Source of the DNA: Vagococcus jeotgali
GTDB lineage: Bacteria > Bacillota > Bacilli > Lactobacillales > Vagococcaceae
NCBI RefSeq assembly: GCF_035918315.1
Contig: NZ_CP142146.1
Span: forward strand, 1,798,001-1,862,000
Reading direction: 5' to 3'
Length of the DNA: 64,000 nucleotides
Shown here in pieces: positions 28,625 to 31,252 of the stretch. The notes below the pieces were generated by a model. The model made no database searches. It was given only the letters and a program-made list of their open reading frames with translations, and had not been told where the DNA came from. A program made the position numbers and the translations under genes. How positions within the stretch are numbered: position 1 is the stretch's first letter; each line of letters opens with the position of its first letter.

Positions 28625-28655
28625 AAAAAAAAGAGACCTTGTCTATCAAGGCCCC
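28625..28655 (-). terminator. Terminator after folT
   Basis: CCTTG (28637-28641) and CAAGG (28647-28651) form the stem core. On the minus strand it is followed by eight T residues (28625-28632). Confidence 0.75.
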
Positions 28656-28670
28656 TTATAAAATGTCTTT

Positions 28671-29195
28671 TTAAGAATTAAAACGCAATAATTGTTGTTT
28701 AATAACATTGACATTGACAATCCAATACGTACCAATAATATGAACTACAAGTAATATGAGTGAACTTACTATTCTACTTGGAATACTGGCAACAATCCCT
28801 GGACCATACATTAAGTACAACCAAAATGTGTTTAAACCTAAATTAACAAAAATCGTCACTATACAGTTGACAATGATAATCCTTGTTAAGGTTATTTCCT
28901 TTTTATAGTAAAAAACACCGTATAAAAAGGCTGTTAAAAAAGCAGACACACTAAATCCTGGGAAAAATCCAGCAGATACTGGAAATAAAGTAATCCCAAT
29001 AAAATCTGCTAAGGCATTAGCAACACCAGCAATAACCGGTGAAAACATCATAGCCATAAGTACAACAGCAATAAAAGCAAAACCAATTCGAACAGTAGGT
29101 AATTGTATGGAGACAAATCTAGTCAAAATAATTTGTAACCCCATTAATACCCCCATTAAAGCAACCGATTTTGCGGTAAATCTATTCTTTTCCAT
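28671..29195 (-). CDS. folT: ECF transporter folate-binding subunit FolT
   Basis: A 174-residue integral membrane S-component with about six helices. The N-terminal MGVLMGLQIILTRF and the helix-6 region NLGLNTFWLYLMYG match FolT. It binds folate or reduced folates and needs the shared ECF module, encoded elsewhere. The strongest functional evidence is the tetrahydrofolate riboswitch in its leader (29229-29329), preceded by a good promoter. AAAGGAGATG lies just before the start codon. Confidence 0.92.
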   Translation of the reverse strand: MEKNRFTAKSVALMGVLMGLQIILTRFVSIQLPTVRIGFAFIAVVLMAMMFSPVIAGVANALADFIGITLFPVSAGFFPGFSVSAFLTAFLYGVFYYKKEITLTRIIIVNCIVTIFVNLGLNTFWLYLMYGPGIVASIPSRIVSSLILLVVHIIGTYWIVNVNVIKQQLLRFNS

Positions 29196-29228
29196 TCTAG
29201 CATCTCCTTTAGAGCTGCTACACGTATG

Positions 29229-29329
29229 CAGCGAATGCGGTCATATAATCGCAAATACAAAAAATGTATCTTTCGTTTACTAAGCAACATCCCATCTTAG
29301 TAACACTTAACGCTATATGTCCTACTCTG
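29229..29329 (-). promoter_or_regulatory. Tetrahydrofolate (THF) riboswitch
   Basis: Read on the minus strand the leader has the conserved THF aptamer blocks in order: GAGTAG, GCGTTAAGTG, ATGGGATGTTG in a hairpin loop, ACGAA, and GCATTCGCTG. Pairings fit: P1 CAG (29327-29329) with CTG (29229-29231); P2 CATATA (29314-29319) with TATATG (29242-29247); P3 TTACTAAG (29296-29303) with CTTAGTAA (29277-29284); and an ATACA/TGTAT hairpin between. The 3' arm GCTGC can pair instead with GCAGC just upstream of the ribosome binding site, suggesting control of translation. Recognised from memory of the consensus. Confidence 0.88.
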
Positions 29330-29347
29330 TTTATTTTTTCAATATTG

Positions 29348-29376
29348 ACTATAACATATATTGATAAAAAAAACAA
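29348..29376 (-). promoter_or_regulatory. Promoter of folT
   Basis: TTGTTT (29371-29376) and TATAGT (29348-29353) are 17 bp apart on the minus strand, with a TG extension before the -10 box. The start point would fall about 12 bases before the THF aptamer. Confidence 0.75.
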
Positions 29377-30688: not shown

Positions 30689-31252
30689 TTATTTAGTAGC
30701 TTCTAAAAATGTTGGGAACTTAAATCTATTCCCTATTTTTCTAGCAATAATTAAAGATAAAGAAAAATCAATTAAACTATGAATAAAGCCACCAAATCCA
30801 ACTAAGACAATCACCGTCTGAAAAAAGGCTGGTGTGTATACAGCCTCTCCTGAATTATCCATCATGAAAAAAATTGTCACAACTAAAACTTCACAAGCTG
30901 CATGTAAAACCCCTAACACAACATTAAATACCCATATTCTTTTATTTGATTGAATACTTTGGGGACTCATTTCCAAATAAAGAGCTCCAAAATAAGCAAA
31001 AACAACATGGGTAAAAGCTCTCATCACAATAATAAAAGGAGCAGTCAAAAAAAATCCAAAAGCTGTCCCTAATGCGACCATCACAGCAACTTTAGGTGAG
31101 ATAAACATAGCTAACATCACTGGAATATGACTACCTAAAGTGTAAGAAGCTGGACCAATAACAATTCTAACTGGCATCATGATAGGAATTAAAATCCCTA
31201 ATGCAATTAAAAATGATGCATAAACCATGGGTTGTGCAGAACTTCTTCTCAT
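30689..31252 (-). CDS. ECF transporter S-component, NiaX-like (niacin)
   Basis: A 187-residue integral membrane protein with five or six helices. The N-terminal half (ALGILIPIMMPVRIVIGP, then ASYTLGSHIPVMLAMFISP) matches the predicted niacin-binding S-component NiaX of lactic acid bacteria as I remember it. GGAG precedes the ATG by seven bases. It follows rsmA by 37 bp and may share its transcript. The ECF energy module is elsewhere. Niacin as substrate is inferred from family resemblance, with no riboswitch or pathway gene nearby to confirm it. Confidence 0.65.
   Translation of the reverse strand: MRRSSAQPMVYASFLIALGILIPIMMPVRIVIGPASYTLGSHIPVMLAMFISPKVAVMVALGTAFGFFLTAPFIIVMRAFTHVVFAYFGALYLEMSPQSIQSNKRIWVFNVVLGVLHAACEVLVVTIFFMMDNSGEAVYTPAFFQTVIVLVGFGGFIHSLIDFSLSLIIARKIGNRFKFPTFLEATK

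Follow-up and report, generated by a model that had tools for sequence, protein, structure and literature searches.

A THF-I riboswitch at folT of Vagococcus jeotgali that probably controls translation of a folate importer

Introduction

Both the tetrahydrofolate (THF) riboswitch class and its association with folT have been published before (PMC9881143). In THF-I riboswitches, according to PMC11477058, U7, U35 and U42 constitute the pterin tetrad, A8, A34 and G44 form a base triple disrupted in the ligand-free state, and the ligand stabilises the pseudoknot and, through it, helix P1. THF-II riboswitches (the folE motif) are described in PMC6800512 as having another architecture and as lying upstream of folE in Gram-negative bacteria, and their ligand is proposed there to block the ribosome binding site (RBS).

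Here we describe the folT leader found in a 64 kb stretch of Vagococcus jeotgali DNA, hereafter the window. With the folT-associated THF-I riboswitches of Gram-positive bacteria (Rfam RF01831), it shares a full covariance match, a FolT protein encoded downstream, a potential L3-J2/1 pseudoknot, the contact residues and P1 as the switching helix. It departs from the usual THF-I by a P1 cut to three pairs and by a platform that we read as sequestor and antisequestor, which amounts to no difference in kind. RBS blocking upon ligand binding is proposed here as it is for THF-II; unlike that class, the window gives no family other than RF01831 at or above the gathering score (cmscan). Four terminator-type THF riboswitches of the same order (L085, L087, L093 and L133) belong to the same aptamer family, but carry a hairpin and U run before a dihydropteroate synthase (DHPS)-like gene where the present locus has a sequestor and folT.

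The folT leader is an ordinary further member of a known riboswitch class and no new kind. Among the titles listed by literature searches on THF riboswitches and folate transporters, and on Vagococcus riboswitches or folate biosynthesis, none dealt with this locus. It is a well-placed member of its class, with a readable expression platform and in a seemingly folate-import-dependent organism, and offers a clean case for a short P1 competing with a sequestor; the general picture of THF riboswitches is unchanged. We consider it very probable that this THF-I riboswitch shuts off folT translation when reduced folate is abundant.

Loci compared

Within the order Lactobacillales, the THF aptamer was found in 191 of 295 genomes. 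The 133 loci analysed comprise the 29 matches of the family, 24 additional best-scoring ones and 80 hand-picked from the matches listed, which cover other families; the sample is non-random and family labels were transferred by hand from the scan of the order. A FolT homologue is encoded downstream in 127 of these 133 loci (phmmer) and TIGR04518 recognised two more (L121 and L125). The remaining four precede a DHPS gene according to TIGR01496 (L085 and L133) or a DHPS-like gene by eye (L087 and L093).

The aptamer

The first-pass annotation had placed a THF riboswitch at 29229-29329 and proposed a covariance-model scan as its check. The scan returned RF01831 on the minus strand at 29331-29227 with 82.7 bits against a gathering score of 36 (E 1.3e-17), in a full-length alignment spanning positions 1-99 of the 99 of the model; the element first annotated is the same one, its ends set at the three inner pairs of P1. 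The genome scan showed no second THF riboswitch in the 2.02 Mb single-contig genome, this copy being the only one found.

29227 to 29331, minus strand: THF-I riboswitch aptamer RF01831, full length (cmscan)
29327 to 29329, minus strand: P1 5' arm, CAG (cmscan alignment)
29229 to 29231, minus strand: P1 3' arm, CUG, the switching strand, common to the antisequestor (cmscan alignment)
29288 to 29292, minus strand: L3 pseudoknot strand, GGAUG, with five possible pairs to CAUUC
29233 to 29237, minus strand: J2/1 pseudoknot strand, CAUUC, able by sequence to pair with GGAUG

In the cmscan alignment, the conserved blocks and helices P1 to P4 are all present and P1 closes a P2/P3/P4 three-way junction. 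The blocks had been correctly recognised at first, while the description of four gapless helices was overstated: P1 retains three standard pairs (CAG/CUG) out of five consensus pairs, and one pair of P2 is non-standard. We count P1 as three pairs because cmscan marks both of its outer pairs as non-standard. The P4 loop carries an insertion. Larger inserts of about 60-100 nt are seen in the P4 arm of the aptamers L021, L026, L027 and L028, from four genomes out of the six in a neighbouring genus (g7); by eye, their P1, L3 and platform look kept.

Regarding the pseudoknot, GGAUG and CAUUC could form five standard pairs out of five. Both strands were located in 127 of the 133 loci (the pattern missed L026, L027, L028, L084, L109 and L118) and five standard pairs are possible in 120 of these 127, counts that are partly built in since the search patterns fixed some letters. 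One position shows G-C, G-U and A-U pairs among the loci. U7, A8, A34, U35, U42 and G44 all fit L124, a locus which we take to resemble the crystallised THF riboswitch RNA, at one of the five constant offsets tried. The window aptamer has the same six letters in the same blocks as L124 (residues as given in PMC11477058).

A chance resemblance within an AT-rich leader has a negligible probability. It could draw only on the folding energy of the whole leader, which is not significantly more stable than shuffles (z -1.47, 19/200) and was dropped as uninformative; it is ruled out by an E-value of 1.3e-17 over the full model, and the same element sits at folT in relatives. By family, the segment 29227-29331 is a true THF-I riboswitch, which would be expected to bind reduced folate.

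The folT gene and its transcription signals

Thirty-one nucleotides separate the end of the aptamer from the ATG of the downstream gene, which had been named folT from the outset. Its product scores 114.2 bits against TIGR04518 (cut-off 60) and its closest PDB sequence is 4z7f, 'Folate ECF transporter' (E 3.8e-35), both of which uphold that name; by TIGR04518, the aptamer lies upstream of a folate transport gene, as members of the class do.

28671 to 29195, minus strand: folT, folate-family ECF transporter S component, 174 aa (TIGR04518 and PDB match)
29204 to 29209, minus strand: Shine-Dalgarno (SD) AAGGAG, 8 nt upstream of the ATG (sequence)
29348 to 29376, minus strand: putative promoter, with a -35-like TTGTTT at 29371-29376 and an extended -10 TG-T-TATAGT, TATAGT at 29348-29353 (sequence)
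28631 to 28657, minus strand: putative intrinsic terminator after folT, an 11-pair stem with a T run behind it

The promoter had been described as near-consensus. This holds for the -10 (five of six positions), with TGTTATAGT lying 17-25 nt upstream of the aptamer, and not for the -35, which is weak (three of six); the spacer from TTGTTT to TATAGT is 17 nt and the putative promoter is absent from the list given by a consensus promoter scan. Among the family loci, 20 of 29 have a match to TGNTATANT at most 60 nt upstream of the aptamer. Transcription would be expected to start near 29341.

Elsewhere on the same strand, at 30689-31252, a 187-aa hydrophobic protein encoded next to rsmA looks like an ECF S component by eye; it had no match in Pfam (E<=10), NCBIfam (E<=0.001) or PDB (E<=1).

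Two mutually exclusive hairpins

Between the aptamer and folT, folding predicts two hairpins that cannot coexist:

29217 to 29232, minus strand: antisequestor hairpin GCUGCA-UACG-UGUAGC, 6 pairs (folding; swap and shuffle tests)
29198 to 29220, minus strand: sequestor hairpin UAGCA-G-CUCU / GGAG-A-UGCUA (folding; swap and shuffle tests)

The sequestor would have nine pairs, one G.A mismatch and an AAA loop, and would cover the SD. The antisequestor would use the P1 3' arm and hence exclude both P1 and the sequestor. This second pairing of the P1 3' arm, just upstream of the RBS, had been anticipated, and the arrangement is that of a translational switch, in which the helix covering the SD excludes a second one built on the P1 3' arm.

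Comparative evidence argues for both pairings. The arms of the sequestor match better within than between loci (native mean -9.72 vs swapped -8.12 kcal/mol; 92 distinct pairs; 0/2000 swaps reach native), as do the P1 3' arm and the sequestor 5' arm (-8.72 vs -6.80; 69 distinct pairs; 0/2000 reach native), in tests that ignore shared ancestry among loci and in which the CTC box of each locus was chosen by best duplex. Moreover, when the P1 3' arm is paired to the 5' arm of the sequestor, the longest helix has a mean of 6.04 pairs vs 3.90 in shuffles, and at least six pairs are reached in 48 of 69 cases vs 6.8% of shuffles. With the register fixed, 368 of the 545 cells (68%) for the six sequestor pairs that lie outside CUC/GAG hold a standard pair; the share falls to 26-50% when the register is slid by 1 or 2, and two-sided changes occur in 78 cells vs 12-42 in the slid registers, counts which likewise ignore shared ancestry. 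At the third pair, for instance, 56 rows have C-G and 10 have G-C; at the first, G.A or A.A mismatches prevail across loci. A two-sided change occurs at every one of the six pairs, a tally that says nothing alone because sliding the register by +1 or +2 gives six of six as well.

A CTC box is reachable from the SD in 115 of the 127 folT loci. The other 12 (L024, L041, L051, L084, L089, L097, L099, L100, L101, L103, L104 and L131) were dropped from the pairing tests, and for L026, L027 and L028 the aptamer end was shifted manually to where the P1 3' arm is visible. The better match of the arms within than between loci supports the translational control postulated in the first-pass annotation, with no clear ON state emerging from folding alone.

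Control by transcription termination rather than translation appears very improbable at this locus, even if the THF aptamers of four folP-like loci in the order, and that of L024, a folT locus of the same genus, are followed by terminator-like platforms. No terminator-like site falls between the aptamer and the folT start, the two detected on this strand being located within folT and downstream of it; the sequestor stem has no U run behind it. A terminator-type riboswitch at folT was rejected on these grounds, no hairpin with a U run being present between the aptamer and the ATG.

Folding energetics

Energies were computed with ViennaRNA, which leaves out the pseudoknot and the order of folding. 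The sequestor form is predicted at -38.5 kcal/mol and the antisequestor form at -38.1 kcal/mol with part of the SD still paired; an antisequestor form with a free SD comes to -35.9 kcal/mol, i.e., freeing the SD would cost 2.2, and the form combining P1 and sequestor to -35.7 kcal/mol. The computed ligand-free ensemble already favours the sequestor (0.71). When P1 is held in silico, the antisequestor drops to 0.00 from 0.25 and the sequestor reaches 0.95, up from 0.71, with a small change in the mean unpaired SD, from 0.42 when free to 0.37 with P1 held. The minimum-energy fold varies with the segment taken, showing the antisequestor for 29180-29340 and the sequestor for 29150-29340. These predicted energies fit, and do not prove, a near-balanced switch whose ON state would be set by the order of folding.

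Proposed mechanism

What the analysis shows is the aptamer family, the gene identity, two exclusive pairings with comparative support and the lack of a match to three models of de novo folate genes. Without ligand, the P1 3' arm would be free and the antisequestor GCUGCA/UGUAGC would form; being transcribed ahead of the SD, this hairpin would remove the strand that could otherwise hide it. With THF bound, the L3-J2/1 pseudoknot would stabilise P1, and P1 would claim the CUG strand. UAGCAGCUCU would then be set free to pair with GGAGAUGCUA, which would lower importer translation. In this scheme we infer ligand binding, the direction of switching, its kinetics and the dependence of growth on FolT. 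Confidence in it is somewhat tempered because slid registers equal the sequestor register on one measure and because the antisequestor form partly pairs the SD.

Folate supply in the host and its family

The folate-synthesis models searched were those of folP, folK and folE. None of them had a match in the V. jeotgali genome, controls being detected in 13/14 cases for folP, 11/14 for folK and 11/14 for folE, the latter by TIGR00063 as the sole folE model. Dihydrofolate reductase (DHFR) and folC are both present (model search), and the ECF ATPase scores 407.2 bits, above the cut-off of 315, with its neighbour below it at 283.2 bits. As there is no folE, folP or folK match and DHFR and folC are kept, the host should therefore need imported folate. 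Apparently unable to make folate, it would depend on uptake, and its supply is thus probably under the control of this switch.

Among the 29 genomes of the family, 28 have the aptamer and 14 have folP, the same 14 having folK. All 15 genomes without a folP match, two of which are less than 90% complete (82 and 89), have both the aptamer and a FolT above cut-off. G011 is the sole family genome without a THF riboswitch and without a FolT above cut-off; folP and folK are present in it.

These data bear on the idea that the aptamer persists as a constitutive leader, having lost its switching or responding to another reduced pterin. The short P1 and the small ON/OFF difference predicted by folding would be compatible with it, as would a folate pool that, with no folP, folK or folE model match, presumably differs from that of a prototroph. 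Nevertheless, the six residues singled out in the review literature (U7, A8, A34, U35, U42 and G44) are retained, the pseudoknot is judged able to form, and the aptamer persists in 15/15 of the family genomes lacking a folP match. We thus regard a non-switching leader as unlikely and favour ligand-dependent control of folT translation.

Variants elsewhere in the order

The THF aptamers of L085, L087, L093 and L133 all come from one other family of the order, lie upstream of DHPS-like genes and are followed by a terminator-like hairpin and U run in place of the sequestor, so that a terminator-like platform is present at 4/4 of the folP-like loci seen. It is conceivable, though we would rather bet against it, that the output mode follows the target gene, with an SD sequestor at folT and a terminator at folP, that compensatory change keeps the three-strand exchange, and that the importer is the target left in lineages devoid of folate synthesis. 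L024, the one locus examined for terminators among the 12 folT loci without a reachable CTC box, is an exception to the association of folT with a sequestor: in contrast to its relatives, this locus, from genome G012 of the same genus, combines a divergent P1 (GGTTG/CTACC) with a terminator-like hairpin and T run, and was possibly acquired separately. Finally, genome G016 harbors two THF riboswitch-folT loci (L010 and L029), both with sequestor-like leaders by eye.
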